DNA from: Balneolaceae bacterium
GTDB taxonomy: Bacteria > Bacteroidota > Rhodothermia > Balneolales > Balneolaceae
Length of the DNA: 34,142 nt
Assembly (NCBI GenBank): GCA_020832285.1
Contig: JAFIFB010000013.1
Coordinates: forward strand, 1-34,142
Reading direction: 5' to 3'
Shown here: positions 1,536-31,069 of the stretch, piece after piece
Numbering within the stretch: position 1 is the first letter of the stretch
How the letters are laid out: the number at the start of each line of letters is the position of its first letter
Translations under genes and position numbers: made by a program
The notes under the pieces: model-generated
What the model was told of the DNA's origin: nothing
The model's input: the letters and a program-made list of their open reading frames with translations, nothing else
The model's database searches: none

Positions 1536-3734
1536 TTAAAGTTGAGGTTGCAGTTTGTCGATTTTCATTTGCTCATTCAAAAACGGAAACTGTTTCTGCC
1601 ATAACCTATAGTAATGGCTCTTCTCCCCGATCAGTTTTTCGTGTGTGCCTTCTTCCACAAGCCGACCTTTTTCAAGGACACAGATTTTGTCAGCCATGAA
1701 GACCGTACTGAGGCGGTGGGCAATCAGAATCACGGTTTTACCCTGTTCCCGAAGATAGGTCACCGCATCCTGCACGTATTGTTCAGATGCAGAATCCAGA
1801 GAGGAGGTGGCTTCATCCAGAATCAGGATTTCCGGCTCCTTGTATAATGCCCTGGCAATGGCAATGCGCTGTTTTTGTCCGCCGGAGAGTGTGGCACCAT
1901 TTTCGCCCAGATGCGTTTCGAAGCCGTTTGGCAGCTCTTCAATAAAAGATAGAATCCCGAGTGTTTTACAAATGGAGATCATCTTCTCCATGTCCGGATT
2001 AAACGCCCCCACTGCAATATTCTCAATCACATTGCCGCTGAACAGATCGATTTTTTGCGGAACCACGGACACAACCTCCCGCAGGCTTTGTGTATCGATA
2101 TGGGCAAGGTTCATCTCACCAATTGATACGCGCCCCGATTCAATAGGATACATCTTCTGCAGGATGTTAACCAGCGTGGTCTTGCCCGAACCGCTCTCTC
2201 CGACAAACGCCGTTACTTTACCTTTTGGTATGACCAGGTCCAGACCTTTAAATACATCCACACGGGATCCGTACCGAAAGTGAACATCCCGGAACCGGAT
2301 ATCTCCCATCATTTCAGGTTTAAGGTCAACTTTCTGTCCCTGTTCTTCTTTATCCAGATCCATGATCTCGAACAGACGGTCAGCGGCAATCATAGCGTCC
2401 TGAATGGTTTTATTCATATCCACCAGTTCACTGACCGGCCCGGTAAAATATCCTATAATCGCATAAAACGAGAGGAGTTCTCCGGGCGTGATGGATCCTT
2501 GCAACACATAGCCGGCACCGACCCACAGCAGAATGATCGTAAACAACCTGGACGTTAACTGGGATGAATTCCCGGAAAAAACAGAATTCAGACCCGACCG
2601 GTACACCGTTTTCAGCAACTGCACAAAACGAGTTTCGGTTTTCATATTGGCAAATTCTTCCAGTCCGAACTGCTTGATGGTGGAGACCGAATTCAAAGAT
2701 TCCACCAACTGGGATTCCAGATCAGCAGCATCTTCCATGAGCCTGCGCTGGGTTTTTCTGTTTAGCCTGTTGGTAATAAAATAAACCAGTGTATAGACGG
2801 GGATAATAGAAAGCATCACAAGGCCCAGCTTCCAGTAATAGGTGAACATCAAACCGAATGAAAACAGAACAATAAAGATGTTTACCACGATGTTAATGGC
2901 CACATCATTGATAAATGCCCGAATCTTCACTGCATCGTTAATCCGGGAGATGATTTCACCCACTCTCATGGTATCAAAAAACCGCTGGGGAAGTTTAAGC
3001 AGATGTTTGTAATAACCAAGAATAAGTCTTGCATCAATCAACTGACCAGTTTTGAGGGTAAACACCGTTTTTGCCACACCGATAAACAGCTGAATCAGGA
3101 GCAGTACAATCATGCCTACACCCAGCAGATTCAGCAGATTCCTGTTCCCGTCAGCCAGCACATGATCCACAATTAGCTGTACAAATATCGCTGTGGAAAG
3201 ACCAATCACCGTATATACTGCCGCCCCGATCAGCGCCTGAAAAAGTACTCCCCGGTGCGGCTTCAGAAGAAACCACAACCGGCTGGTGATCGATACTTTT
3301 TCGCTTCCCGGTTCAAATGTTTCGGCGGGCATAATCAGAACCAGAACTCCGGTCCACTGTTCTTTGAACTCCTCATGAGGGATTCGGTGAAGCTTCCCGT
3401 CCATCGGGTCCATTACTTCGATATATTTATCGGTGATGTCGTAAATAACCACAAAATGGTGGAGAACTTCTTTAACCACCACATGAGCAATCGTTGGCAC
3501 GGGAATTTTGAACAGGCTCTCATACTCCCCTTTTACACCTTTGGCAGACAGGCCAAGTTTATCGGCGGCTTCCATCATGCCGAGGATATTCGTTCCTTTT
3601 TTATCGGTAGACGCGTACTGCCGGATTTTCGAAATGGGCATCTCAAGTCCGAAATGTGCTGCAACTGATGCCAGGCAAGCTGCACCACAATCGGTAATAT
3701 CATGCTGTTTGACACAGATTTTTCGTTTTCTCAT
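1536..3734 (-). CDS. Peptidase-containing ABC transporter (C39 domain, PCAT type)
   Basis: 732 residues in the standard three-domain order. The N-terminal C39 cysteine peptidase shows Gln10, catalytic Cys16 in DCGAAC, His93 in LHHFVV and Asp109 in MDP. The membrane domain spans about residues 155-430. The ATPase domain has Walker A GESGSGKT (512-519), Q-loop Gln560, signature LSGGQ (616-620), Walker B ILILDE (636-641) and switch His673, so peptidase and ATPase both look intact. The family cleaves leaders after GG and exports the core across the inner membrane as a homodimer. It lies between the HlyD-like gene (107-base gap) and the HTH gene (15-base gap); its likely substrates are the peptides at 579-1133. 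Confidence 0.95.
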   Translation of the reverse strand: MRKRKICVKQHDITDCGAACLASVAAHFGLEMPISKIRQYASTDKKGTNILGMMEAADKLGLSAKGVKGEYESLFKIPVPTIAHVVVKEVLHHFVVIYDITDKYIEVMDPMDGKLHRIPHEEFKEQWTGVLVLIMPAETFEPGSEKVSITSRLWFLLKPHRGVLFQALIGAAVYTVIGLSTAIFVQLIVDHVLADGNRNLLNLLGVGMIVLLLIQLFIGVAKTVFTLKTGQLIDARLILGYYKHLLKLPQRFFDTMRVGEIISRINDAVKIRAFINDVAINIVVNIFIVLFSFGLMFTYYWKLGLVMLSIIPVYTLVYFITNRLNRKTQRRLMEDAADLESQLVESLNSVSTIKQFGLEEFANMKTETRFVQLLKTVYRSGLNSVFSGNSSQLTSRLFTIILLWVGAGYVLQGSITPGELLSFYAIIGYFTGPVSELVDMNKTIQDAMIAADRLFEIMDLDKEEQGQKVDLKPEMMGDIRFRDVHFRYGSRVDVFKGLDLVIPKGKVTAFVGESGSGKTTLVNILQKMYPIESGRVSIGEMNLAHIDTQSLREVVSVVPQKIDLFSGNVIENIAVGAFNPDMEKMISICKTLGILSFIEELPNGFETHLGENGATLSGGQKQRIAIARALYKEPEILILDEATSSLDSASEQYVQDAVTYLREQGKTVILIAHRLSTVFMADKICVLEKGRLVEEGTHEKLIGEKSHYYRLWQKQFPFLNEQMKIDKLQPQL

Positions 3735-3841
3735 GAATGGGATTCATTTTGTGAATTCCGGATCAGGATTAAAACATGTCAGCTTTCACAGATTGGCAAA
3801 GAGCTGATCTTATTGCCGCTGCTTCTGAACCATCATTCACA

Positions 3842-5032
3842 TTAATGTTCTGTTTTGGAAGCATATTCATTTTCTCCCCAGGACGGGTCGAGCCAATCAT
3901 CCACTTTGTCGCGGAGAAGCTGCAAGAGGCTTCTTCTGGCTACGATAAATCGCGCCTGGAACGTCATACCTTTTTTTATTTCTGCACTGAAACCATTTCC
4001 CAGCTCCAAAAATGTTTGATCAAGAGAGCACCGAACCCGAAACAGCGGTTGTCCGTCATTCATCAATACATCACTGGATATATCTTTGATCTTCCCGGTC
4101 ACAACACCCCAATCGTGATGATTGTAGGCATCTACCTGCAGCCGCACCTGCATTCCTTTGCGTAACAAACCGACATCCTGCGGCGATACATACGCTTCGG
4201 CAACGACGCTGGTATCTGGTGATATTTCACCCAGCACCTGGTTAGCATAAACAAAGCTGTTTTGGAAAATTCCGTCTGTATTCTGAACGGCACCGGTGAC
4301 AGGAGACCGGATTTCATAGCGGCTCAACTCCTGCTGCAGGCGAATTCTCTCAGACTCCAGTTGGTCAAGCTCTTCCTCAAATGCAGTTTCATCCATTTTC
4401 CACTGATTAAACTGTTGCTCGATAAGCAGCTTGTATTGGCTGACGGCATTCTGCCATGAAAAATCAGCTTCATCCAGAACTGCTTCACTAACGGCTTCAT
4501 TTTCGAAAAGAATTCTTTCCCGTTCGAGCTGCCTCAATAATTGCTCCACTTTCTGATGCTGACTGATAAGCTTTTGACTGAATTCAAGCCAGGCTCTCCG
4601 GTACCGGGCGGATTCTAAATCAACCGGGTAATCAGGAGTTTCGGGATCTGCCTGCTCCAGCCTCGCAAGATCTGCCAGAAACATATTTACCTGATCCGTC
4701 CGCATTCTGTTAAAGCGTAGTCTTTCGGAAAGTTCCGGTGCCTCAAGTACGGCAAAAATATCACCCCTTTGAATAATACTGTTTTCGGTTGCATTCAAGA
4801 TCTGGATCTGCCCCGAGACAGGTGAAGTGAGCTGTACGACTTCTGTGACCGGACGAATAAGCCCCTGACTGCGGACTCCCACATCCACATGAATAAATGG
4901 AAGAAGACAAATAGCAGCTATCAGAAACAGCACAATTGAAGAATAGATGACTCTGGATCTGACCGAATGCTTTGAAAAGTTGGCCTCTTGTGAATTCTCG
5001 ATAATTTCTTCTGGAAACAGTTGTTTTTGCAT
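3842..5032 (-). CDS. HlyD-family membrane fusion (adaptor) protein
   Basis: 396 residues. A single membrane anchor lies near residues 27-47 (VIYSSIVLFLIAAICLLPFI), followed by a biotinyl-lipoyl-like half (RPVTEVVQLTSPVSGQIQIL), a long helical hairpin about residues 115-240 rich in Glu, Gln, Leu and Arg, the second lipoyl half (YEIRSPVTGAVQ) and a C-terminal beta-barrel region. It is the periplasmic adaptor linking the C39 ABC transporter to an outer-membrane channel, as in other Gram-negative type I peptide exporters. No TolC-like gene is in the window, so the channel must be encoded elsewhere. It is the first gene of the transport operon. Confidence 0.92.
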   Translation of the reverse strand: MQKQLFPEEIIENSQEANFSKHSVRSRVIYSSIVLFLIAAICLLPFIHVDVGVRSQGLIRPVTEVVQLTSPVSGQIQILNATENSIIQRGDIFAVLEAPELSERLRFNRMRTDQVNMFLADLARLEQADPETPDYPVDLESARYRRAWLEFSQKLISQHQKVEQLLRQLERERILFENEAVSEAVLDEADFSWQNAVSQYKLLIEQQFNQWKMDETAFEEELDQLESERIRLQQELSRYEIRSPVTGAVQNTDGIFQNSFVYANQVLGEISPDTSVVAEAYVSPQDVGLLRKGMQVRLQVDAYNHHDWGVVTGKIKDISSDVLMNDGQPLFRVRCSLDQTFLELGNGFSAEIKKGMTFQARFIVARRSLLQLLRDKVDDWLDPSWGENEYASKTEH

Positions 5033-14742: not shown

Positions 14743-15921
14743 TTACCAAGTAATTTCTCGTATTGTGTCGAAATATGGAGTCCTTTTCTCTTCCACACAT
14801 TGACAAGCATAGAGATATAGCGATGCACTCCAGGTTTGCCAATCTTGCCCCATAGGTTTGCCAGTTTGGGATTTAATCCATTCATTAAATCCAAATTTAA
14901 CGGGTTCAATTCGGGATTTTTCAATGAGTCTGGTTAGAGTCAAAAGTTTACTTTCTGCCAATTTATATTCTTTAACAGCTACAAGAGCCGCAATGTAAAT
15001 GCCACATGTAAACGGCCAAATACCACCATTATGATAATGCCCGGGTTGGTTAAACATGTTATCCCTATAGTGCCAGTCTTTATCGTTTGGTTGAATGAAG
15101 GGAAATAAGTTTGGTGGCATATTCACAACTAATAAACCATCTTTAATCATTTTCTGACACTCTTGTTCTATCCATAAAACTATTTCTTTTGAACGACCCG
15201 GAGAGGCAATTCCGGTCAAAATAGCAAGGCTGTTTCCAAGCAGATCAAATCGCTCACTGCTCAGTACTTTATAAGACCAACAAGCATAGTAGGGTTTGTT
15301 TTTTAAAGACAATCCTTCGTGGACATGATTGTGCATTATATCCGAGGTAATAGTAAAGCGAGTCATTTCCTCTTTAAGTTTTTCTGCTCTTTCAGTTTGG
15401 CCAAAAAGACACAAATATCCATGAACCACCGTATTGACAAACAAGCCATATCCTAAAACCCACTGTTCATCTCTCCAGTCACTTGTTGGTTGTTGGGCAA
15501 TCAAAATATGATCATCAGGACTTTGGTATTCCATCCAGGTCATTGCTTTTTCAGCTTCCTCTTTAAGAAAATCAGGCTCATTCATTTTTAATCTGTAAAT
15601 CCCCAAACCAAGTAAAAACAGGGGTGTGGTGTCACTTGCTCCAAGGTCATTTTTATTATGAACCAAGCTGGGAATCAGCCCTCTTTTTGACTGATTTTTT
15701 GCAAGTGTTTCCAATACATTCCTTACGCTATCGAGTAGAATTTTGTTATCCGTAGAGGTAATTCCCAGAATAGAAAACATCAAATCTCTGGTATAGGGTT
15801 CAGGATATCCCCATCCTGCGGTACGGGGAAGTCCCTCATATGGACCGTGTGCATTGTGCAGTAAAACTTCTATTGCAGCTTCTTTTGCCTCAGCTATAAA
15901 TTTTAGGTTTTTAGAGTCCAT
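14743..15921 (-). CDS. GH100-like (alpha/alpha)6-barrel glycosidase
   Basis: 392 residues with repeated helical hairpins. GWGYPEPYTRDLMFSILG near the N-terminus places Asp46 where GH100 (alkaline/neutral invertase) and amylo-alpha-1,6-glucosidase-like enzymes have the catalytic acid. NGGIWPFTCGIYIAA and FGFNEWIKSQTG, then QDWQTWSASLYLYA, match the conserved C-terminal half, with the Glu of FNEW a candidate base. No signal peptide, so cytoplasmic. It ends the seven-gene operon, 8 bases after the GT4 gene. It may hydrolyse the product or a precursor; invertase activity is possible but unproven. Confidence 0.7.
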   Translation of the reverse strand: MDSKNLKFIAEAKEAAIEVLLHNAHGPYEGLPRTAGWGYPEPYTRDLMFSILGITSTDNKILLDSVRNVLETLAKNQSKRGLIPSLVHNKNDLGASDTTPLFLLGLGIYRLKMNEPDFLKEEAEKAMTWMEYQSPDDHILIAQQPTSDWRDEQWVLGYGLFVNTVVHGYLCLFGQTERAEKLKEEMTRFTITSDIMHNHVHEGLSLKNKPYYACWSYKVLSSERFDLLGNSLAILTGIASPGRSKEIVLWIEQECQKMIKDGLLVVNMPPNLFPFIQPNDKDWHYRDNMFNQPGHYHNGGIWPFTCGIYIAALVAVKEYKLAESKLLTLTRLIEKSRIEPVKFGFNEWIKSQTGKPMGQDWQTWSASLYLYACQCVEEKRTPYFDTIREITW

Positions 15922-15929
15922 AAAGGGGA

Positions 15930-17072
15930 TTAATTGATTCCAAGTTTGTCCTGCATAAGTGTTACAAATTGTTTTGCTACTACTCTGTAATCAAAATGCT
16001 CCACTACCCGAATTCTTGCTGCTTTTCCCAATTCCTCTCGTAGTGATGCGTTTTCCATAAGTGCCAGCAGATGGCCTGCAATGTCTTGAACGTTGGCACG
16101 ATAGTCCACTGTTCGGGGTACATCAAACACTACTTTGTGATTGTCTTCAAATCCGGATTCATCTCCCAGAGTTACCTCATTTACCACAATTTTTTCAGCA
16201 ACATTTGCCAATAGTGCCGTTTTTCCATGCACAAGTGTATCCAACATGCCCATTGCATTGATCCCAATGACTGGTTTTTCGCAAGCACCGGCTTCTACTT
16301 GTGGCATCCCAAATCCTTCCAAACGGGAAGGGGCCGCATAAATATCACAGGCACCTACCAAATAAGGCATAAAATTTCTTGAGATGGTATTAGTAGCGTA
16401 GGTGACATTTTTTTCTATACCTAGCGCAGTAGCCATTTCCAAATCAGCCTGGTTTTGCATCCTGGTTCTTGGCTGTGGCCATACTTTGCAAACGTACTTC
16501 CAGTCAGGCGCTTTCGAATTAATGATAGCCAGTGCCTGCATCACCTCTTGTGCTCCTTTTGATGCGGCATCTCCACCCACAGTAAGGATCATGAGCTGGT
16601 CCGGAGAAATCCCCAAAGACTCTCTTACTGCCTTAATTTTTGGATCATCCTTTTGGAAAGGTATAAATTGATCAGTATGACAACCCACCGGTAAGACCTC
16701 AATTTTATCACCACTGATCCCATCACGAACATACATTTCTTTCACCCAGTTGGAAGTGACCAGGATCAATGGAAGTGCATTTAAAACTTCTTGATAATTG
16801 GCGATATATCCATCTGCTACCAGCCAGGGTACCGGCTGTATGCCATATCTCTGAGGATGAAGTACCAAATGCGGGGAATGCCCCCAATAGCCAACTCCAA
16901 CGGCAACATCGGGATTGAACCACCGATAGTACCACTCTTTTTCCTGCGCAGATTCAAAATGGACGGCATGGGCATCTACTCCCAATTCCAGAAGTCCTTT
17001 ATATAAAAGATCGCCTTGAGTAGCCAGTCCTCCCGGTGAAGGTGGGTAATCATATAAAACCAGTACTTTCAT
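15930..17072 (-). CDS. GT4 glycosyltransferase (operon gene 6)
   Basis: 380 residues, GT-B fold. The glycine-rich N-terminal loop is PPSPGGLATQG (about 10-20). The donor-binding half has LTVGGDAASKGAQEV and the GT4 EX7E motif SRLEGFGMPQVEA, with Glu252 and Glu260. GT4 enzymes are retaining and commonly use UDP-Glc, GDP-Man or UDP-GlcNAc. The sequence around the first loop does not fit BshA of bacillithiol synthesis despite the neighbouring PIG-L gene. It follows the PIG-L gene by 7 bases and precedes the GH100-like gene by 8, so all three are tightly coupled. Confidence 0.88.
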   Translation of the reverse strand: MKVLVLYDYPPSPGGLATQGDLLYKGLLELGVDAHAVHFESAQEKEWYYRWFNPDVAVGVGYWGHSPHLVLHPQRYGIQPVPWLVADGYIANYQEVLNALPLILVTSNWVKEMYVRDGISGDKIEVLPVGCHTDQFIPFQKDDPKIKAVRESLGISPDQLMILTVGGDAASKGAQEVMQALAIINSKAPDWKYVCKVWPQPRTRMQNQADLEMATALGIEKNVTYATNTISRNFMPYLVGACDIYAAPSRLEGFGMPQVEAGACEKPVIGINAMGMLDTLVHGKTALLANVAEKIVVNEVTLGDESGFEDNHKVVFDVPRTVDYRANVQDIAGHLLALMENASLREELGKAARIRVVEHFDYRVVAKQFVTLMQDKLGIN

Positions 17073-17079
17073 AATTATG

Positions 17080-17697
17080 TTAATTTTTGATGGGCCTTTT
17101 TTTAGCTTTTAATGAACTTTCAAACTGCCAAAATGCTTCAGATTTTGGTGTTGTTTGAGCTTCCCAGCTATGGGTATCAAATCCATAGGTTTCGATAATG
17201 ATTTGGTACTTTTCTAACCAGATTTTGTGGCTCAGCTTATGAAAAATGGGTGCCTCCGCAATTGGCATGGGGAAATGCGTTTTTTTGTGATCATCATAGG
17301 CAAATAACCAGAGATCTTTCGTCTTTAGTCTGCCGGATTCCAGCAGGTTAAGAACAGCATTACTTGTCTCTTCATGCCTAAGGTGCCGCGTGTATTCTCC
17401 CTGAGGGGAATGAGTGATGATGAGATCGTATAAGGGTATTGGCAGCAGGTCTAAAATAGCTTGCTCAACTTCCTGAATATTTAGTGGTTTTTGGTCTGGC
17501 CCATCGTCCAGATCACCCATTACACCTTGAGCATTAAGTTTTAACATTGCCTGGTTAAATCTTGGCTCCCGGTTTTTATCATTTTTTCTACATAAGGATA
17601 TAACAAACCAATTCCATTCAGGATTAGATAAAATGGTGCCACCGGCCCACAAAGTTTCGTCATCAGGATGAGCAACTATTACTGCACAGTTTTTCAT
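17080..17697 (-). CDS. PIG-L/LmbE-family zinc deacetylase
   Basis: 205 residues. The signature AHPDDE gives His10 and Asp13 as zinc ligands with Asp12 as general base, and HLRHEE near 105-110 provides the third ligand His108. The family removes acetyl groups from N-acetylglucosamine or related sugars on small molecules and lipids. No signal peptide. Lying between a GH130 gene (58-base gap) and a GT4 gene (7-base gap), it suggests that one sugar in the product carries an N-acetyl group that is removed during synthesis. Confidence 0.88.
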   Translation of the reverse strand: MKNCAVIVAHPDDETLWAGGTILSNPEWNWFVISLCRKNDKNREPRFNQAMLKLNAQGVMGDLDDGPDQKPLNIQEVEQAILDLLPIPLYDLIITHSPQGEYTRHLRHEETSNAVLNLLESGRLKTKDLWLFAYDDHKKTHFPMPIAEAPIFHKLSHKIWLEKYQIIIETYGFDTHSWEAQTTPKSEAFWQFESSLKAKKRPIKN

Positions 17698-17755
17698 GGT
17701 TGTCTCATTTATGGATTATTTATCAATTTCGCTTCAAGAGATCTTTGAATTATTA

Positions 17756-19207
17756 TCACACTCGTTTCATTCTGGAAAGCAAATCACTTACATCCACAGT
17801 AGCAATTCTTGATGTTATATCGGACATGGCGTACGGCACAATTAGCTTGTTGTTATGAATCAAAGAGCCACAGGAATAGACCACATTGGGTACATAACCT
17901 TCGCGCTCTTCCTCATTTGGTGTAAGAAACGGCTCTTCGAGCCGTGCAATAACTTTCGAGGGATTTTCAAGATCAAGCAAAATGGCACCGATAACATACT
18001 GCCTCATGGGTCCAACGCCATGCGTTATCACTATCCACCCCTCACCTGTTTCAATTGGTGAGCCGCAATTCCCTATCTGAACAAATTCCCAGGGCATTTT
18101 TGGTTCCTGAATTATTTCAGCCTTATCCCAAAAGTGCAGGTGGTCAGAATACATGATGTAGTTATTCTCTCCATCCATACGGGAAAGCATCACATATTTA
18201 CCGTTTATCTTTCGCGGGAAAAGGGCCATCCCTTTATTTTGAACAGCCTCGCCATTTAACGTAATGATATCAAAAAAAACAAAATCCTTGGTTAAAAGCA
18301 GCTGCGGAAGAATACAAACACCATTATATGCAGTGTAGGTCGCATAGTAGACAATTTCACCATTCTCATAGAAAAATTGAACAAACCGTGCGTCTTCTAT
18401 TCCCTTGCTTTCATTTTCAGAAACCGGGAAAATCACACGTTCAGAAATATCATTTTTTGATTCAAATTTTATGAAATAATTAGAATCGGCAAGCCAGAGA
18501 ATATTATTTATCGATTCTTTAGAATAAGCATTTACAGTATCCATTTGAACCGCTGTAATTCTACTCTTTAACTGGCTGAACGTGAATGATTCCGGCAGTT
18601 TTTTAAATACCCTTATACTTGTTTCATTCCACGCTTTCATATGTTCCAGCTTACGCTGAAACATATGACGAACATACGATTGGTCATGACGGATTTTGGG
18701 AGTTTCAACAAACTCGCTTACCGGATTAAAAAGAATGGAGCCATCTTCTTTAATGATACCGCTGCGAAATACGATGGAAGAGATATGGCCTTCTCCGGTA
18801 GCCCGAAGACTCATGATAAACCGTAAACTTCCGGGATCGACACCTTCCTGGTTTGGATGAGGAACAATTGACGGATTAAAAAGGGCTGCAGATTCAATAG
18901 AGTACTCCATCGAAAAGTAAGCTCCTATCAATTGCTTCTTGGTGCTGCTTAATTTTTGGCCATCCGGAACATATTGGGATACCTTCTCAAAGTTTGCCTT
19001 AAACACACCTGCGATATCTTTATGTCTGTCGGAGAAATTAAAATTAACTGTTTTCAGTAATTCTTTAGCTCTTTCATCAGATAAATTTACAACCCTGGAT
19101 ATGATTCCCTCTATTCGTTTTTTGACCTGCATATGAGTACGGGTTATTACTCTTGATGCGTTCCTGTTAATTTTAGTTCTGCTTCTTTTAACGAATTTCT
19201 TTTTCAC
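17756..19207 (-). CDS. Long GH130 glycoside phosphorylase/hydrolase
   Basis: 483 residues, longer than the usual 300-350 of GH130. Residues 1 to about 100 are a basic, helical extension (starting MKKKFVKRSRTKINRNASRV) before the five-bladed propeller. The catalytic-acid region reads KGIEDARF with Asp272; the short paralogue upstream has GIEDPR at the same place. Later blades show PRKINGKYVMLSRMDGENNY and GEGWIVITHGVGPMRQY. GH130 enzymes act on beta-mannosides, most by phosphorolysis and some by hydrolysis, and I cannot tell which from sequence here. No signal peptide. The similar paired long and short GH130 genes with glycosyltransferases suggest a stepwise recycling system. Confidence 0.85.
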   Translation of the reverse strand: MKKKFVKRSRTKINRNASRVITRTHMQVKKRIEGIISRVVNLSDERAKELLKTVNFNFSDRHKDIAGVFKANFEKVSQYVPDGQKLSSTKKQLIGAYFSMEYSIESAALFNPSIVPHPNQEGVDPGSLRFIMSLRATGEGHISSIVFRSGIIKEDGSILFNPVSEFVETPKIRHDQSYVRHMFQRKLEHMKAWNETSIRVFKKLPESFTFSQLKSRITAVQMDTVNAYSKESINNILWLADSNYFIKFESKNDISERVIFPVSENESKGIEDARFVQFFYENGEIVYYATYTAYNGVCILPQLLLTKDFVFFDIITLNGEAVQNKGMALFPRKINGKYVMLSRMDGENNYIMYSDHLHFWDKAEIIQEPKMPWEFVQIGNCGSPIETGEGWIVITHGVGPMRQYVIGAILLDLENPSKVIARLEEPFLTPNEEEREGYVPNVVYSCGSLIHNNKLIVPYAMSDITSRIATVDVSDLLSRMKRV

Positions 19208-19258
19208 TTTTTTCCTGATTAGGAAGGTTAATACTTCTTATATGCATATGTTTTATCC

Positions 19259-20272
19259 TTATTGTAATTTCAAAATATGTTTATAAGTCTCAAGGTATGC
19301 CTGCGTCATTTTTTCTCTGCTGAACTTTGAAAGCGCCCACTCCCTGCACCTGTTTCGCTCAATAGTTTTGATGTTATTTACTGCTTCGGCTGCTTCTTCA
19401 ATGCTGTTTACCAGAAAACCGGTTTCCCCGTCAATGATCAGTTCAGGCATAGAACCTAAATTGAATGCGATAACGGGCGTGCCGCACATCATCGATTCTG
19501 CCACACTTAAACCAAATGGTTCTTTAAAACTGATGGGGTGCAGAAGTGCAAACGCTTCTCCCAGCAGTTTATCCCTTTCCTCTGATCCCGAATTCCCCAC
19601 ATACAGTATGTCATCATCATTAATAAAGGGCTTTACTTTGCTGTCAAAATATTCCTGATCCTGGATTAAGCCCGAAATAATTAATTTCCGTCCCGTTTTT
19701 TTGGCAATCTGTATAGATTCCCAAGTCCCTTTTTCTGGGTGGATTCGCCCAAAAAACAACAGATACTCTTTTGAAGCTTCCCGAAATGTAAACTCATCTG
19801 TATTAATCCCATTATATATGGTTGCAATGTAATCAAGTTCAGGAGAACGGTCGGAGTTACTTATGGATACGTAATAATTGTCGTTGTTATACTTTTTATA
19901 TACCGGCAATATCCTGGGAGATGAAAAACCATGAATGGTGGTCAGAATGGGCGTTTTAATCAGCCGGGAATAGGTAAGCGGAAGAAAATCGAAGTGGTTA
20001 TGAATGATATCAAATTCATCTGCCTGTTCCATCAGGTGACCGATATGAAGGCATTCCCATACCTTTGGGTCCGTTTCCGGATTCTCAGCGTAACCCTCAT
20101 TCGTCACAGATTGCAAACGGCCTATTGTAAGCGAATTACCTGTAGCAAATAAGGTGACATCAATGTCATTGGCTACTAATCCTTCAGTAATATTTGAAGC
20201 CACCTGTTCCCAGGGGCCGTATTTTTCCGGTGGCGTTCTCCATGCAATGGGTGACAATATGGCTACTTTCAT
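19259..20272 (-). CDS. GT4 glycosyltransferase (operon gene 3)
   Basis: 337 residues, GT-B fold. It opens MKVAILSPIAWRTPPEKYGP with the N-terminal nucleotide-sugar fold, has IHNHFDFLP near 90-98, LLFFGRIHPEKGTWE at the start of the C-terminal domain, and the EX7E motif KEPFGLSVAES with Glu251 and Glu259. It resembles trehalose/sucrose-type or mannosyl GT4 enzymes of small soluble acceptors, but no specific donor can be assigned. It starts just beyond the 227-bp repeat element and is followed after 51 bases by the long GH130 gene. Confidence 0.88.
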   Translation of the reverse strand: MKVAILSPIAWRTPPEKYGPWEQVASNITEGLVANDIDVTLFATGNSLTIGRLQSVTNEGYAENPETDPKVWECLHIGHLMEQADEFDIIHNHFDFLPLTYSRLIKTPILTTIHGFSSPRILPVYKKYNNDNYYVSISNSDRSPELDYIATIYNGINTDEFTFREASKEYLLFFGRIHPEKGTWESIQIAKKTGRKLIISGLIQDQEYFDSKVKPFINDDDILYVGNSGSEERDKLLGEAFALLHPISFKEPFGLSVAESMMCGTPVIAFNLGSMPELIIDGETGFLVNSIEEAAEAVNNIKTIERNRCREWALSKFSREKMTQAYLETYKHILKLQ

Positions 20273-20277
20273 ACTAT

Positions 20278-20504
20278 CCCGGATATCTCACTGTAAAATA
20301 TGTTAAACATAATGTAACCATTTCATATGTTATACTTTATAATCCAAATTTGGAATCTTTAAAAAACAGACCCTGTTTCTCTGCGACATTTTTTCCTCAA
20401 CTGCGTTGAATCTAAAATGACGTGCTCAACGTACTCAGGTACATTTCCGCTGCCATTTTAGATTCGCCTTGCTGAGGAAAAAATCTCTTGGTGAGATATC
20501 CGGG
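20278..20504. repeat. 227-bp element with nested inverted repeats inside the glycan operon
   Basis: Outer arms CCCGGATATCTCAC (20278-20291) and GTGAGATATCCGGG (20491-20504) are a perfect 14-bp inverted repeat. Inside lie ATTTTTTCCTCA (20388-20399) with TGAGGAAAAAAT (20473-20484), and GAATCTAAAATG (20408-20419) with CATTTTAGATTC (20454-20465), both perfect 12-bp pairs that stack into one long stem. The right arm ends exactly before the stop codon of the short GH130 gene and the left arm lies 5 bases from the GT4 start, so the element fills the whole gap. It looks like a non-coding palindromic mobile unit. Confidence 0.75.
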
Positions 20505-21431
20505 CTATTTAGGATCACGACGATTATTCAAACAGTGATCCACAAGCTCTTCTATAATTGCTGTGCCCACACACATGACTGTATCGGCTGCACCCCAGTA
20601 AATTTTTACTGTGCCATCGTCTTCTGGAACCGCTCCACAACTGAATACTACGTTGTGCACATAACCTGTAATCTCATACGGTTCTTCCGGCTGCAGAATC
20701 CATTCATCATCAACAGCAATAATTACAGACGGATCTTCGAGATCGTGCAGTACCAGCCCTAACCTGTAAACACTGCCGTCCATGGTCGGGAAAACACCAT
20801 GATAAATATTAAGCCAGCCCCTGGTTGTTTTAATAGGCGGTGCACCCGGGCCTATTTTCATTTCATCCCAGTGATACTGCAACGGTTTCATGATTAATTT
20901 GGATTCACCCCAGTAGATCAGGTCAGGTGAATAAGATATCCAGATAGACCATGGGGATATTTCGGAATGCGGACGATCCAGTCGTGCAAACAACCCATTA
21001 AACTTCTCCGGAAAGATCACCACATTGCGGTAGTCTGCTTCAGTGATAAGAGATATTCGCTCTACAGATTTAAAATCTGTGGTTTTTGCCAGGCCGATTC
21101 TCACGCCATTCCGGGAATAGGCGCTGTAGGTTATCAGGTATTCACCTTCAAATAAAATAATACGCGGGTCTTCAATACCATATTCTTCGTATTCTTTAAA
21201 AAAGTCTTCATCAGATGGAACCATAAATGGCTCTTCATCTACTACAAAATTAAACCCGTCATTGCTCACCGCCTTCCCCAATATGCTTCTTCCATTCCGT
21301 TTATGAGAACGAAATATCATGATATAGGTATCCCTGTATTTTACAACTCCGGCATTGTGTACCGTAGCCACAGGATAAGGCACATCATCTTTCGTAAGAA
21401 TGGGATTATTATGATATCTCTTTATCAGCAT
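20505..21431 (-). CDS. Short GH130 glycoside phosphorylase/hydrolase
   Basis: 308 residues, the normal size for a bare five-bladed GH130 propeller. The catalytic region is EEYGIEDPRIILFEGEYLITYSAYS with Asp88 in GIEDPR (positions 85-90), and the blade containing FARLDRPHSE, then IWISYSPDLIYWGESKLI, matches the family. The R-P-H cluster is where phosphorylases bind phosphate, which favours phosphorolysis, but the subfamily is not certain. The start overlaps the end of the upstream GT4-fusion gene by 23 bases, a strong sign of coupled expression. No signal peptide. Confidence 0.88.
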   Translation of the reverse strand: MLIKRYHNNPILTKDDVPYPVATVHNAGVVKYRDTYIMIFRSHKRNGRSILGKAVSNDGFNFVVDEEPFMVPSDEDFFKEYEEYGIEDPRIILFEGEYLITYSAYSRNGVRIGLAKTTDFKSVERISLITEADYRNVVIFPEKFNGLFARLDRPHSEISPWSIWISYSPDLIYWGESKLIMKPLQYHWDEMKIGPGAPPIKTTRGWLNIYHGVFPTMDGSVYRLGLVLHDLEDPSVIIAVDDEWILQPEEPYEITGYVHNVVFSCGAVPEDDGTVKIYWGAADTVMCVGTAIIEELVDHCLNNRRDPK

Positions 21432-23724
21432 ATTTTTTGCTCTTTCTGATTACAGAACCATTGCTCTTGAAATCCTTTTTGTCATTTTCTTCCAATGCCT
21501 GTAATACGATTAAATGGGAAATCAGATAAGCCAGCGTGCTTTCGGCCCCCTGGTTACGATTTACCCCATAGTTTTCAAGGCCATCGAAACACCCTTTGGT
21601 TTCATAATCATACAAACTCATCCGCAGGTCATTTTGCCCCAAAAACCACATGAAGCAAGAAAACAACTTCGACAGATAGTCTTTATCTTTTGTTAAGTAA
21701 AAGGCCTGATGATACATTAAAATCATGGCCAGTGCATCCAACGGTTGTTGAGCAAACATGGATCGTTTACCACCTTTTTCATACCATTCTTCATTGCCGA
21801 TAATTGACAAGTAACCATCTTTAAGAGTAAGATCCGTCAGAAAGTCCATCGATTCCAAAGCAACGGCTTTGATTTCATCGTCGTCAGATATTTCGGCAGC
21901 ATGTAAGAGGGCAAGGGGCAAAAGGCCATTATCATACGTGAGTTTTGGCTCAAACCAATTCCAGCCGGGCGACCTGTTTTTCTCATATTGATCGATTAAC
22001 TTCCCGGCAAGATTTCTTAATACCTTTATCATTGATTCATCTGAGGGATTATCTTTCAGGTAATAGCTGATCCCTAACATTGTATTGGCGATGGCTCGTA
22101 TTGATTTAATTTTTTCAAAGTGCGGGGAAGCCTCAAAGAAAATCAGTTTTCCTGTCTGGCAATAAGAATCATTAGGAGCATTACCTATCAGGTAGCCAAG
22201 AGCCCAGATAGCTCTTCCAAACGAATCCTCCGAACCAACCTCATCAAGAAAGTTCCGCTCAAAATTCAGAAAATTCCTGAATGTTCCGTCTTCGTTTTGC
22301 ATATAGTGAATGTAGCTCAGGTATACAGGAGTTAATTTTAGTGCAACCATGTCTTTCTTTTGCCTGTACGCCATAAGTGCCATCAGCAGAGCCCGGGCAT
22401 TATCATCAAGACAATATCCTTCTTTCAGATAGGGAATACTGAATCTAGCATGCTGAATAATCCCGGTATCATCCGTCAGGCGTTTAACATGATTTAAAGA
22501 AAATGGCGGCAGTAAAAGCGGATCAATTAACGTTTCGGCCTTCGCAAGAACTTCAGGCTCACTTGATTTAATTTGTTTGGCAAGCGTAATGTATTTGCTC
22601 CCGGATTTTGGCCAGGTTGTTGTTTTACCATATTCCCTGGCTTTATTTCTGATTTTCGTCAACTCATCAGGGTTATCGAGCAAGTCAAGCAGAATCTTTG
22701 AAAGTCCTTCAGAATCATTAAAGTTAAAAAACCGTCCCCGGCCTTCATCCAGTAATTCCGATGCATGCCAGTACGGTGTTGAAATAACCGCCGAACCTAC
22801 GCCAACTGCATAAGAGAGAGTTCCGCTTGTAATCTGTGCTTCATTCAGGTAAGGCGTAATGTATATATCACAGGCCGATAAATATTTAAATAGTTCTCTT
22901 TGATCTATAAATTCATTTATAAAAATAACATGATTTTCCAGGTTAAGCGTATTTACCAATTGATGAAGATAGTTGCGATATTCTTCGCCGGAATAACGAA
23001 CTACATTTGGATGCGTCTTCCCAAGGACGATGTATAACAGATCCGGATTTTTTTTAATTAACGCGGGCAATGCATTAATTACGGTTTCAATTCCCTTATT
23101 CCGGCTGAGAATTCCAAAGGTGAGTAATACTTTTTTATGCTCGAGTTTTAATTCCTTTTTGGATTGTTCTTTATCAAACTGAATATCGGGAACGCCATGT
23201 TCAATGATTGAAATCTTTTCTTCGTCTGCGTCATAGATCTCAGTGAGAAGTTCAATGGCTTTTTGACTCATAACAACCACTTTTTGGGCCATTTTGCAGA
23301 TTTTGCTCAGTACAACTTTCTCGTTGTAGGAAGGGTCTTTTACAATCGTATGAAGAGTTACGATGAGCGGAATTTCAAGACGATGAATTAAAGGAAGGAT
23401 ATACAAACCATTCTGACCTCCAAATATTCCGAATTCGTGTTCAATGATACAAACATCAGCGCCGCTTTGATTGATAAACTTTGCCGCTTCCAGGTAGTCA
23501 CGCTGATGTTCCTGCCTGATGTTCAGTTTAACCTCATCAGGATAATCATAGGATTGATCATGATCATTCATAGCAACAATGAACCCTTCAATTGTATCCT
23601 TTTTGGGCTTATTGCCGTTAGTCGATATAGCAGGATTTGTTACCATCGATTGGTAAAGGTTTTGGGTAAACGTTGCAATACCACATTCGCGGGGAGGATA
23701 TGTTCCTATGCAGGCAATTTTCAT
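21409..23724 (-). CDS. GT4 glycosyltransferase fused to an alpha-helical toroid domain
   Basis: 771 residues, first gene of the operon. Residues 1 to about 390 are a GT4 domain: PPRECGIATFTQNLYQ at the start, EHEFGIFGG (about 93-101), LTFGILSRNKGIETV (about 204-218), and a variant donor motif YLNEAQITSGTLSYA where the second Glu of EX7E is missing. Residues about 415-750 are helical repeats (GYCLDDNARALLMALMAY, EDSFGRAIWALGYL, MFAQQPLDALAMIL), resembling an (alpha/alpha)6 barrel of glycosidase or epimerase type. No known fusion of this shape comes to mind by name. It may extend a glycan and trim or bind it. Confidence 0.85.
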   Translation of the reverse strand: MKIACIGTYPPRECGIATFTQNLYQSMVTNPAISTNGNKPKKDTIEGFIVAMNDHDQSYDYPDEVKLNIRQEHQRDYLEAAKFINQSGADVCIIEHEFGIFGGQNGLYILPLIHRLEIPLIVTLHTIVKDPSYNEKVVLSKICKMAQKVVVMSQKAIELLTEIYDADEEKISIIEHGVPDIQFDKEQSKKELKLEHKKVLLTFGILSRNKGIETVINALPALIKKNPDLLYIVLGKTHPNVVRYSGEEYRNYLHQLVNTLNLENHVIFINEFIDQRELFKYLSACDIYITPYLNEAQITSGTLSYAVGVGSAVISTPYWHASELLDEGRGRFFNFNDSEGLSKILLDLLDNPDELTKIRNKAREYGKTTTWPKSGSKYITLAKQIKSSEPEVLAKAETLIDPLLLPPFSLNHVKRLTDDTGIIQHARFSIPYLKEGYCLDDNARALLMALMAYRQKKDMVALKLTPVYLSYIHYMQNEDGTFRNFLNFERNFLDEVGSEDSFGRAIWALGYLIGNAPNDSYCQTGKLIFFEASPHFEKIKSIRAIANTMLGISYYLKDNPSDESMIKVLRNLAGKLIDQYEKNRSPGWNWFEPKLTYDNGLLPLALLHAAEISDDDEIKAVALESMDFLTDLTLKDGYLSIIGNEEWYEKGGKRSMFAQQPLDALAMILMYHQAFYLTKDKDYLSKLFSCFMWFLGQNDLRMSLYDYETKGCFDGLENYGVNRNQGAESTLAYLISHLIVLQALEENDKKDFKSNGSVIRKSKKYADKEIS

Positions 23725-27651: not shown

Positions 27652-30600
27652 TCACTGATCCATCTCAAACCGATCCGGACGTTTCCAGCGTACCGGTGGG
27701 TCAGGTTCTGATTGCATTTCTACCGGGGAAAGCTCAAGCAGGCGCAACGCTTCCTCTACCGACGCCTCGAGCTGGGGATCGTTACCCCTTAACACCTCAG
27801 CCGGATGCTGCAACACTTCAATATCGGGTGCCACTCCTTCTCCCTCAACGGCCCATTCACCATCGGTATCAAAAAAGCCGCCTCGAGGGGCCACCATCCG
27901 CCCGCCGTCGATAAATAGCGGAGTATCCCAGGTGCCTACAAGGCCTCCCCATGTTCGCTGACCAATAAGCGGACCGATCTCCATCTTGCGAAACATATAG
28001 GGAAGGAGATCACCGCCGGAGCCTGCATTCTGATTGATGATCATTACCTTAGGCCCCCAGATACCGGCCATTGGAGTGGTAAACGGTTTACGATCGCCCG
28101 CCCGGCTGTTAAAGTATCCGTGAAGCTGCCGCGCCATGATGTCCACCATATAGTCGGCCGCAGAACCACCACCATTATTTCGTTCATCGATGACGGCCCC
28201 CTGCCGGTCTTGCTGAGAAAAATAGTAGCGGTTGAAATATTCATATCCAACCTCTGCGGTATTTGGTACATACACATAGGCCAGTTTTCCGTCCGACATC
28301 TCATCCACCGCCTTCCGGTTCGACTCAATCCAGTTTCTCATCCGCAAACCAAACTCATTATTGACCGGAACCACGGTCACTCTTCTTGAACCTTCAAGTT
28401 CAGGTGAGCTATTCACACGGATCTCCACCTGACGCCCGGACGTCGATTCGAAATGCTCATAAAGGTTCATATCGGCCGTTAATTCCCGTCCATTCACTTC
28501 CAGCAGGTAATCCCCCTCGTTTACGTTGATTCCGGGGCCCGAAAGCGGGGCGGTAAGGCCGGGGTTCCAGTTTTCGCCGGTGTAGATCTTCTTGATGCGG
28601 AAGCGATTATTTTCAATTTCGTAATCGGCACCAAGCAAACCTCCCGGAACAGTATCGATATCGGGCATATCTCCGCCATACACGTAGGAGTGGCCCACAG
28701 ACACTTCACCTCCCATAATCTCCACAATGTAGTTCAGGTCGGTTCGATGCCGTACGTGATCAACCCACGGCCGGTACCATTCATGAATTTTGTCCCATGG
28801 TGCTCCGTGGACATTGTCGACATAAAGGAAATCGCGCTGAAACCGCCACCCTTCCTTAAAGATCTGCTCATACTCCTCCCTGGGATTTACCCTGATCGAA
28901 ATATCATCCGTTCCAATACTGCCGTCACCCGGGCTTACGGCTCCGCCGGTTGTGCTTACGATTCCCCAGGTTGATCCGCTTCGGTACAGAAGATTTTGAC
29001 GGTCATGACTTACCTCGGCTTCGTTCAGGTTCTCCAGAAATTCGATCGACTCTCTGTCGGAGAGGCTGTAGCGATGGAGTACCGCGGGCCGGTTTTCGCG
29101 GGATTCCGCATAGAAGATATGCCCTTCTGGCCCCGCAACCGTGTAGGTATAATTTCTTATGGGAACGTCAATTGCGACCTTTCGCTGATCGATCCCATCC
29201 ATGTCGATCCGTACCTCAACTTCGTCGTTCGATTCATCGCCATTCTCATCTTCTCCCGCAGATTCATCGTCACTTTTGGGTAGCAGCGGAGAGGGTTCAT
29301 CATCAGCCAGAACAATCATGTAAAGGCCACGGGTGACGGGCATATTGTAGCTGCTCATATCCAGCCAGCCGGTGTTCAGCCCAAAATCGGTACTTGCCAG
29401 GAAGTAGAGATACTTTCCGCTCTCATCCCACTGCGGATCGATCACATCCGCCAGGCCATCGGTAAGCTGATAATTTTCACCCGATTCGATACTGTGCACA
29501 AACAGTGCCTTAAACTGATTATCGAGCAGGCGAGCGTAGGTGATCCAGCGGCTGTCGGGCGACCAAACCGGATTCATGGTACGATTGGGATGTGCAAAGC
29601 GATCGGTCTCAACATGGGTCAGGCCGCCACTTTCAAGATCGATATACCAGAGATTGTAGTCAGTGTCGGTAAAGGCGATATATCTACCGTCAGGAGACCA
29701 GTCGGGACGGAAATAGAATTTATCATTCAGCACATAGCTCCTTGGCTCTTCTGTACCGAACTGATCGCTTACATGAAGCTGGTATTCACCTGATTCATCT
29801 GAAAACCAGGCGATTTGTGTGCCGTCTGGCGACCAGACCGGCGAGCGCTCTGCTGCGAGTGAAGTATTTGTGAGATTACGCCAGTTTCCGTGCTCCTTTG
29901 GCACAGTGATGATTTCTCCGCGGTGTTCAAAGATAGCTCGCTGCCCCGTGGGTGATAGCCGGGCATTGGTCAATTGTGTGGGTGATACGTCGGTGTATCG
30001 CGACCGTGCCCAGTTCAGATCTCCGCGCGCATAGATCTCAAGCTGAGTCGTCTCTTTGGTTCGCGGATCGAGCTGATGGAGATACCCGCCCTGCTCATAT
30101 ACCAGGATATCATCGGCCGCAGATAGATTTTTCACGTCAAACTGCGCATGAAATGTTAGCTGATCTTCCTCGCCGGTATAAGGATTGTAGGACCAGACAT
30201 TGTTGGCATAGTCACGCTCGGAGAGATAGTAGATTGTATCACCAATCCAGACGGGTGAGGTGTGCCGCTCACGATCTGTGCGCGGAGTTTGATGAAATTC
30301 TTCGGTTTCCATATTAAATATCCAGATCGGCTGGGCCTGGCCACCCCGGTAGTTCCTCCATTCGGAATCCCAAAACGGAAATGGCTGATAGGCAACTTTA
30401 GATCCGTCGGGTGAGATCGATCCGGTATTGGCAAACGGCAGGGAGAGAGCCTCAGGAGTGCCGCCATCAACGGAGACACTGAAAAATTTGGTGTTGGCCG
30501 TCGGATAGCCTTCGCGCCCTGACCGGAACACAACCCGTTCACCATCCGGTGTCCAGTCCTGTACAATATCGGGCCCGGGGTGCCAGGTGAGCCGCATCGG

Positions 30601-30891
30601 TTCTCCGCCAATAACCGGTACGATATAGACATCGGTGTTGCCGTCGTACTGACCGGAAAAGGCAACCCATTCGCCATCGGGCGAGATACGCGGATTCACT
30701 TCAGCCCCCTCAGCCGAAGTTAAACGGCGAGCTTCGCCCCCGCCGCGTTCTACCACCCATAGGTCATTGGCATGAACAAAAACGATATGGGTATCACTGA
30801 CGGACGGATCCCGCAGCAGCATAGTACCCTGGGAAAAAAGCGGAACGGTGATCCAGAAAATAAGGAAGATTGTAAGCGAATATTTTTTCAT
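27652..30891 (-). CDS. Tricorn-like protease (beta-propellers, PDZ, S41 core)
   Basis: The start MKKYSLTIFLIFWITVPLFS at 30891 gives a clean signal peptide and is preferred over an ATG 39 bases upstream, leaving 1079 residues. The N-terminal half has repeated WD40/TolB-like blades (ISPDGEWVAFSG, WTPDGERVVFRSG, WSPDGTQIAWFSDE). After an acidic linker (about residues 545-570 of the long form) come a PDZ domain (GDYLLEVNGRELT) and the peptidase core with DERNNGGGSAADY and NQNAGSGGD, the nucleophile Ser about residue 971 of the long form. Unlike archaeal tricorn it is exported, so it probably degrades peptides in the periplasm. It is monocistronic. Confidence 0.92.
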   Translation of the reverse strand: MKKYSLTIFLIFWITVPLFSQGTMLLRDPSVSDTHIVFVHANDLWVVERGGGEARRLTSAEGAEVNPRISPDGEWVAFSGQYDGNTDVYIVPVIGGEPMRLTWHPGPDIVQDWTPDGERVVFRSGREGYPTANTKFFSVSVDGGTPEALSLPFANTGSISPDGSKVAYQPFPFWDSEWRNYRGGQAQPIWIFNMETEEFHQTPRTDRERHTSPVWIGDTIYYLSERDYANNVWSYNPYTGEEDQLTFHAQFDVKNLSAADDILVYEQGGYLHQLDPRTKETTQLEIYARGDLNWARSRYTDVSPTQLTNARLSPTGQRAIFEHRGEIITVPKEHGNWRNLTNTSLAAERSPVWSPDGTQIAWFSDESGEYQLHVSDQFGTEEPRSYVLNDKFYFRPDWSPDGRYIAFTDTDYNLWYIDLESGGLTHVETDRFAHPNRTMNPVWSPDSRWITYARLLDNQFKALFVHSIESGENYQLTDGLADVIDPQWDESGKYLYFLASTDFGLNTGWLDMSSYNMPVTRGLYMIVLADDEPSPLLPKSDDESAGEDENGDESNDEVEVRIDMDGIDQRKVAIDVPIRNYTYTVAGPEGHIFYAESRENRPAVLHRYSLSDRESIEFLENLNEAEVSHDRQNLLYRSGSTWGIVSTTGGAVSPGDGSIGTDDISIRVNPREEYEQIFKEGWRFQRDFLYVDNVHGAPWDKIHEWYRPWVDHVRHRTDLNYIVEIMGGEVSVGHSYVYGGDMPDIDTVPGGLLGADYEIENNRFRIKKIYTGENWNPGLTAPLSGPGINVNEGDYLLEVNGRELTADMNLYEHFESTSGRQVEIRVNSSPELEGSRRVTVVPVNNEFGLRMRNWIESNRKAVDEMSDGKLAYVYVPNTAEVGYEYFNRYYFSQQDRQGAVIDERNNGGGSAADYMVDIMARQLHGYFNSRAGDRKPFTTPMAGIWGPKVMIINQNAGSGGDLLPYMFRKMEIGPLIGQRTWGGLVGTWDTPLFIDGGRMVAPRGGFFDTDGEWAVEGEGVAPDIEVLQHPAEVLRGNDPQLEASVEEALRLLELSPVEMQSEPDPPVRWKRPDRFEMDQ

Positions 30892-31069
30892 AGAACCCAG
30901 ACTGGTTGATGGTGATTTTAGAATCGACAAGATATTACTAAATAGAGCCCAGATCTTAAAATGGAAGAGTATGGAAATCGGCTTATAATATACTCATCCA
31001 GCTTCGCCATAGTTCAAGGAAAAATCGTATGGAAACCGTGCTATTGTTAAAGCTTAAAATCCCGATAGA

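Follow-up and report, generated by a model that had tools for sequence, protein, structure and literature searches.

A stretch of 34,142 nucleotides from a Balneolaceae bacterium (assembly GCA_020832285.1, contig JAFIFB010000013.1, positions 1 to 34,142; here called the window) carries on its minus strand, from 23724 down to 14743, seven open reading frames (ORFs), g1 to g7, whose families all score above the Pfam curated cut-offs. We propose, as a reading that we regard as evenly balanced between right and wrong, that this operon specifies a self-recycling cytoplasmic pathway which makes and recycles a mannose-containing glycan, the predicted product, and is tied to stress. The pairing of g1 with GH130 enzymes, together with ManA, ManB and ManC and the chaperone genes found beside this pair on plasmids, makes it likely that the sugar is mannose, that the pathway runs towards synthesis and that stress is its setting. 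A preliminary description of the same DNA had listed three GT4 glycosyltransferases, two GH130 enzymes, a PIG-L deacetylase and a GH100-like enzyme; the ORFs are real and these assignments stand, and its proposal of mannose, of synthesis with turnover and of phosphorylase-type GH130s is supported by the neighbourhoods and motifs set out below. That the operon is more than a chance assembly follows from the occurrence of the same families together in other genomes.

The g1 fusion protein

The g1 gene (21409 to 23724, minus strand, as are all seven) encodes a 771-residue protein of two domains, a GT4 domain at residues 1-390 or so and an unnamed (alpha/alpha)6 domain at about 400-750, as defined by Pfam, an AlphaFold model (mean pLDDT 83) and fold matches. 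The glycosyltransferase half has a GT-B fold near those of MshA, PimA, BshA and sucrose-phosphate synthase, and matches ManT with a Z score of 30.9. The EX7E motif is a hallmark of GT4; across 45 fused proteins, which we chose from the loci, the corresponding site reads Q297, S300, G301, T302 (Ser in one) and Y305, that is Q..SG(T/S)..Y.

The C-terminal half (window 21412-22425) matches no Pfam family at or above cut-off. Its best solved match, and the sole strong one for its family, is Yersinia pestis YPO2471 (7tem; Z 38.5, 336 residues aligned, rmsd 2.8), and the two belong to the same (alpha/alpha)6 family: their sequences match at E 2.9e-10 with the window domain alone and at 9e-150 with the A4 profile. 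YPO2471 is free-standing and annotated as a putative exported protein, whereas the g1 domain is fused to GT4; no paper in the open-licence literature searched names it. The domain looks competent, as a putative glycosidase, because the acids D441, E592, D714 and E728, together with N442 and R444, are invariant in all 45 fused proteins. The single (alpha/alpha)6 glycosidase of the preliminary description, g7, keeps that label, but this second domain had been overlooked. Free-standing relatives of the g1 C-terminal half, 23-26% identical to the window in the A4 alignment, adjoin GH130 genes. One (L072:7972-9228), with a lipoprotein-like N-terminus judged by eye, lies in a GH130 sugar-uptake locus in which inspection by eye also suggested genes for a GH2-like enzyme and a sugar ABC transporter, and another (L222:3169-9700, on a Sphingomonas hankookensis plasmid) is accompanied by sugar ABC transporter genes, GH130 and DUF1861.

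The GH130 pair

Both g2 (20505 to 21431, 308 residues) and g4 (17756 to 19207, 483 residues) match GH130 PF04041, with 183.2 and 114.7 bits, respectively, against a cut-off of 26; the g4 match covers residues 236-481, and residues 1-235 lie outside it. The nearest solved structure to g2 is TM1225, followed by a 1,2-beta-oligomannan phosphorylase, and the best for g4 is the 1,2-beta-oligomannan phosphorylase 9fj8. Among the aligned relatives (g4-group proteins shorter than 560 residues and g2-group proteins of 250-420 residues) the catalytic-acid Asp, equivalent to BT3780 Asp142, is present in 59/59 g2-type and 43/43 g4-type rows. Window g2 and g4 both retain the Lys, Arg and His of the phosphorylase motif columns, which we take to be those that bind phosphate. 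These columns read Lys in 41 and Arg in two, Arg in 43 and His in 43 of the g4-type rows, and Lys in 41, Arg in 17 and Phe in one, Arg in 59 and His in 59 of the g2-type rows. One study ties basic residues to phosphorolysis in GH130 (PMC4599007), and the motifs mark both enzymes as putative phosphorylases rather than hydrolases.

The same source ties BT3780 Lys199 to beta-1,2 cleavage and describes 4udk as UHGB_MP, a Man-beta-1,4-GlcNAc phosphorylase (PMC4599007). This position, which we mapped through the solved beta-1,2 enzymes 9fj8 and 7fip against 4udk and not through BT3780 itself, holds the beta-1,2-type Lys in every g4-type row (43/43) and Arg in window g2. The combination of this Arg with Glu beside the catalytic Asp is confined to nine of the 59 g2-type rows, namely window g2 and those of eight cassette relatives (L063-L066, L083-L085 and L219); of the others, 38 have Glu with Lys and 12 have Tyr with Arg. 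We also observed that in class relatives of 57-60% GC (L134:8668-12870, L076 and L136) a g3-type GT4 has as its neighbour GH130, a tandem GH130-GH130 protein (712-724 residues) or both.

The remaining glycosyltransferases, deacetylase and GH100-like protein

The other two glycosyltransferases, g3 (19259 to 20272, 337 residues) and g6 (15930 to 17072, 380 residues), have a GT4 Pfam domain and an EX7E motif, at residues 251-259 and 252-260, respectively, and a g3 homologue adjoins GH130 on one Fusobacteriota and one Deinococcota plasmid. The 205-residue g5 protein (17080 to 17697) matches PIG-L PF02585 with 34.1 bits (cut-off 28.2) and carries HPDD and HLRHE, corresponding to the HPDD/HxxH metal motifs that are hallmarks of PIG-L proteins; it is reasonable to expect from such a putative de-N-acetylase an N-acetyl sugar, or a deacetylated hexosamine, in the product. 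The 392-residue g7 protein (14743 to 15921) matches GH100 PF12899 with 44.6 bits, a partial match (residues 185-377 against profile positions 251-433 of 435) and not the full-length one of a GH100 invertase; the match to GDE_C PF06202 is also partial. The g7 model (mean pLDDT 72) resembles invertases, GH63 mannosylglycerate hydrolase, amylo-alpha-1,6-glucosidase, glucoamylases and MmpH (Z 22.4); we describe g7 as GH100/GH63-like, with an (alpha/alpha)6 fold. Compared with the window across the 80 best named loci, g6 is 80-86% identical, g5 52-62% and g7 58-69% (short partial g7 rows reach 74%). The unusual conservation of g6, far more constrained than its partners g5 and g7 across L139-L218, is a side observation.

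Conservation as two modules in Bacteroidota

The preliminary description suggested that the seven families be examined for conserved co-occurrence, and what emerges is two conserved modules that often meet. Module I comprises g1, the GH130s and the second GT4, and Module II, the trio, comprises PIG-L, the GT4 g6 and the GH100-like g7. Among the annotated loci all seven genes occur together only in the window and its congener L084, which rules out the stricter notion that they always travel together; some contigs, such as L063 and L083, stop inside the operon. In our annotation ORFs overlapping a longer neighbour by more than 30% were discarded, and the apparent lack of a gene may therefore be artefactual; this befell g3 and g2 of L220, which were taken from the homology search instead. 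L063, L064 and L084 retain Module I as g1-g2-g3-g4. For Module II we used a g6 scan of named genomes, taking the best 80 of 281 relatives with up to 10 kb of flank on each side, and PIG-L-g6-g7 is complete in 75 of these 80 loci. Immediately ahead of g5 and on the same strand, as in the window, g4 is found in seven of them. The g1-g4 and g4-g7 strings are thus both conserved and, since they overlap, cover the whole operon.

In the flanks of the 80 trio loci lie, in many gene orders, a g1-type gene in 42 cases and GH130 in 34; 33 loci have the two together and 43 have at least one of them. The g1 gene reaches 60% identity or more in 17 loci, 25 have only a more distant g1 type, and g4 is present in 23. 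In the 35 fully flanked loci a g1-type gene or GH130 lies near in 21, against about 0.4-1.4 expected under random placement, a figure that serves as a guide only because the loci share ancestry. Where the trio flank showed neither, g1 was found elsewhere in 25 of 26 genomes (representing 26 of 37 such loci), compared with 72 of 394 phylum genomes having g1 at E 1e-60 or better (Fisher p 2e-16, kinship ignored). The trio order was confirmed in three non-host genomes with trio-level g7. GH130 lies within 5 kb of g1 in at least 27 of the 53 g1 genomes, host included, that belong to one of the genome samples searched (a hand count), and strong g1 matches occur in two of the 27 host congeners searched, several of whose genomes are incomplete.

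Two minor observations concern the trio loci. A family of proteins of about 128 residues lies near the trio and on the same strand in 18 of the 80 (e.g. L197:5763-6155); the one member scanned has no Pfam match above cut-off. In L182, L198, L155 and L217, labelled ANME-2, Anaerolineae, Syntrophales or Thalassobius, g6 is 80-84% identical to that of the window, and these are probably misbinned.

Plasmid-borne relatives and their neighbours

Parts of Module I recur in Bacteroidota, Fusobacteriota (where all four genes are present), Deinococcota and Alphaproteobacteria. Plasmid pILYOP02 of Ilyobacter polytropus (Fusobacteriota) has the order g3-g2-g4-g1, and a Deinococcus plasmid g1-g3-g2. In all, 28 plasmid records have g1, 26 of them alphaproteobacterial by genus, and the counts that follow are for 14 loci of these 26 records, some being near-duplicates. 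A g4-type GH130 comes after g1 in 14/14 (13 by ORF scan, Novosphingobium humi by tblastn positions), and several of the carrier plasmids are typed as conjugative. No g1 match was found in viral contigs, and no g6 match on plasmids at E 1e-40.

Beside the g1-GH130 pair, nine of the 14 loci have ManA (mannose-6-P isomerase), ManB (phosphomannomutase) and/or ManC (mannose-1-P guanylyltransferase), two more have an AGE epimerase, and three have neither. Chaperone genes lie near six of the nine mannose-supply loci, groES-groL in two and dnaK-grpE in four. In two Sphingobium yanoikuyae plasmids groES-groL is followed by ManC-ManA-g1-GH130-ManB, and in four other plasmid loci dnaK and grpE lie close to ManC-g1-GH130, accompanied by Hsp20 or a universal stress protein. 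Near the Bacteroidota trio (n=80) are Usp clusters in 17 loci, YtxH in 12 and BON in seven, one member of each cluster being named by Pfam; PAS kinases (by eye) and alpha-glucan phosphorylase are also among the trio neighbours.

A model for the proposed pathway

The families, the motifs, the conserved neighbourhoods and, in relatives, the nearby genes for mannose supply and stress are observed; what the enzymes act on, which bonds they form, in which direction and sequence they work and what part they play in stress are all inferred. Mannose 1-phosphate (Man-1-P) and GDP-mannose (GDP-Man) would come from general metabolism in the host, and in Alphaproteobacteria from the adjoining ManA, ManB and ManC, which could supply the Man-1-P for synthesis by GH130. 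As GT4 is a retaining family, g1, g3 and g6 would lay down alpha-linked sugars, and beta-mannosyl bonds are best assigned to the GH130s, which could add or remove beta-mannosyl units reversibly with Man-1-P and phosphate; g4 would act on beta-1,2 linkages and g2 on another linkage or acceptor. The preliminary description, in explaining the set by synthesis of a beta-mannoside, implies that the GT4s of the operon make it; as written this is unlikely, and we rejected the idea on the retaining mechanism of the family. PIG-L (g5) may deacetylate an N-acetylhexosamine in the glycan core, and the (alpha/alpha)6 domain of g1, with g7, may trim the chain to fragments that are re-used as primers. The presence of such trimming domains in the same operon makes a self-recycling cycle plausible, such as has been shown for methylmannose polysaccharide (PMC9883506).

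The pathway is best read as new in its assembly of known enzyme families, intracellular mannan cycling being already known. We suggest only tentatively, and with less confidence than we place in the pathway itself, that it is a plasmid-borne, otherwise horizontally spread stress pathway of at least four phyla making a previously unseen cytoplasmic mannose glycan, with as its signature an altered-site GT4 fused to an (alpha/alpha)6 glycosidase of an uncharacterised family and paired with a GH130 working in the synthetic direction. If true, this would be a bacterial counterpart of mannogen or of methylmannose polysaccharide cycling. GH130s have mostly been explained as catabolic; their recurrent pairing with the fusion and, on alphaproteobacterial plasmids, with genes for mannose supply and chaperones suggests an anabolic cycle that is widespread. 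The ManC-ManA-g1-GH130-ManB genes of Sphingobium offer a compact, testable set, and an (alpha/alpha)6 family to which these scans give no Pfam name is brought to light.

Relation to known systems

Three described systems come close. The Thermoanaerobacter cluster Teth514_1785-1796 carries a GH130 pair in which beta-1,2-oligomannan phosphorolysis feeds GDP-Man (PMC4264767), and similarly has two GH130 phosphorylases without signal peptides, their neighbours being a GT4 and a mannose-1-phosphate guanylyltransferase. An ABC transporter and GH5 are further members of that cluster, which is read as salvage, whereas the window operon has no sugar transporter and does have the GT4-(alpha/alpha)6 fusion, PIG-L and the GH100-like enzyme, and some of its alphaproteobacterial relatives have ManA/ManB. 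The mycobacterial methylmannose polysaccharide cluster (ManT, MmpH, MeT1 and pMeT3) is tied to growth at low temperature (PMC9883506). That single cluster encodes both the mannosyltransferase that builds a mannan and the endomannosidase that recycles it, and the likenesses of the g1 glycosyltransferase half to ManT and of g7 to MmpH, neither being the closest match, recall this arrangement. The Pfam search found no methyltransferase among the seven operon proteins, leaving MeT1 and pMeT3 unmatched, and the methylmannose cluster differs in turn from the operon with its GH130 and PIG-L. In Leishmania, mannogen serves energy storage and involves GT108 mannosyltransferase-phosphorylases (reviewed in PMC8950772); GH130-fold enzymes that build and break beta-1,2-mannan are the shared feature, although the operon combines GH130 with GT4 and trimming enzymes and its product is only predicted.

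In the open-licence literature the matches listed for the GT4-(alpha/alpha)6 fusion and the stress cassette contained no description of them, and nothing was found for GH130 with GT4 in a stress context. GH130 with PIG-L and a glycosyltransferase returned only a CAZyme study, judged by its title, and PIG-L with GT4 in Bacteroidetes nothing relevant by title; for GH130 with mannose supply only PMC4264767 was relevant by title among the matches listed.

Evidence against the proposed pathway, and alternative readings

Several observations weigh against a mannose glycan pathway tied to stress. The Pfam domain and GT-B fold of g1 are present, but it lacks the canonical EX7E of GT4, and four plasmid records outside the 14 loci match its glycosyltransferase half only. 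A g2 at 60% identity or more occurs in 0/80 trio loci, and g3 in 3/80, so the link between the modules rests on g1 and g4. Trio-level g7 is present in only four of 394 evenly drawn phylum genomes, host included; of these only the host and G428 have g1 (Fisher p 0.15), and in G428 the two genes are far apart. The listed g1 is away from the listed GH130s in G060, G065, G105, G113 and G202. ManA, ManB and ManC are found in 0/141 stretches (the window and 140 loci, nearly all Bacteroidota) at E 1e-15, many trio neighbours are unrelated to stress, and the nearest scanned window neighbours include no stress gene, an RNA helicase excepted.

Other functions would also account for part of the gene set. 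The preliminary description named first an intracellular beta-mannoside reserve like the mannogen of Leishmania. In such a reading a beta-1,2-mannan would be laid up and its phosphorolysis would yield energy, and the beta-1,2-phosphorylase type of g4 and the mannose-supply genes in nine of 14 alphaproteobacterial loci would suit it. Yet the host already has the glycogen genes GlgC and GlgA, both above cut-off, a plain beta-1,2-mannan requires neither PIG-L nor three GT4s, and relatives have stress genes among their neighbours; the idea is weakened by these findings and we consider it improbable. We think it similarly unlikely that the operon degrades imported mannosides or N-glycan fragments, with GH130 freeing Man-1-P and PIG-L and the (alpha/alpha)6 domains processing the rest. 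Three glycosyltransferases, the mannose-supply genes of related alphaproteobacterial operons and the lack in the operon of a secreted enzyme and a sugar transporter (none of the latter among the 20 window proteins scanned) all speak against degradation, even though uptake loci with sugar ABC transporter genes do contain homologues of both GH130s and of the C-terminal half of g1, and GDP-Man salvage is proposed for the Thermoanaerobacter GH130-GT4 cluster (PMC4264767).

The folds of MshA, BshA and PimA near that of the g1 glycosyltransferase half, the stress context in relatives and the combination of GT4 with PIG-L, generally familiar from mycothiol and bacillithiol, would fit a small glycosylated solute, thiol or glycolipid head group, GH130 being a side activity. 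Such a product is doubtful: NCBIfam MshA, BshA and BshB2 scores are far under cut-off, the seven genes include no further thiol-pathway gene, and the presence of a pair of GH130s and a pair of (alpha/alpha)6 domains would go unexplained. By far the least probable is an operon for a cell-surface or capsular glycan, since despite the several GT4s and deacetylase that are generally common in such clusters no flippase, polymerase, initiating transferase or polysaccharide export family was found among the 20 window proteins scanned.

Operon layout and other features of the window

The junctions from g1 to g7 measure -23, 232, 51, 58, 7 and 8 bp. The gaps of 7-8 bases and the 23-base overlap of the preliminary description thus hold for three junctions, but not for the three of 232, 51 and 58 bp. 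Its statement that signal peptides are absent agrees with the hydropathy analysis, in which none of the seven proteins begins with a hydrophobic segment, the highest Kyte-Doolittle score of any 19-residue stretch close to an N-terminus being 0.94.

The gap between g2 and g3 is filled by a repeat element (20273 to 20504, no strand assigned), defined by its matches in the genome and a hairpin. Counting the element itself, 40 scored candidates out of 125 gave at least 43 matches in the host genome, 14 other copies being near full length with 72-84% identity, and it folds as a strong hairpin (z -8.8). As the congener L084 and the relatives L063 and L064 lack it at this junction, the operon was probably once tighter and the element probably stands outside the ancestral operon.

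Elsewhere in the window a Tricorn-like protease gene (27652-30930) has 49-52% GC in surroundings of about 40% and was possibly acquired, and a Peptidase C39 ABC exporter and HlyD-type adaptor pair (1536-5032) forms a likewise higher-GC stretch.

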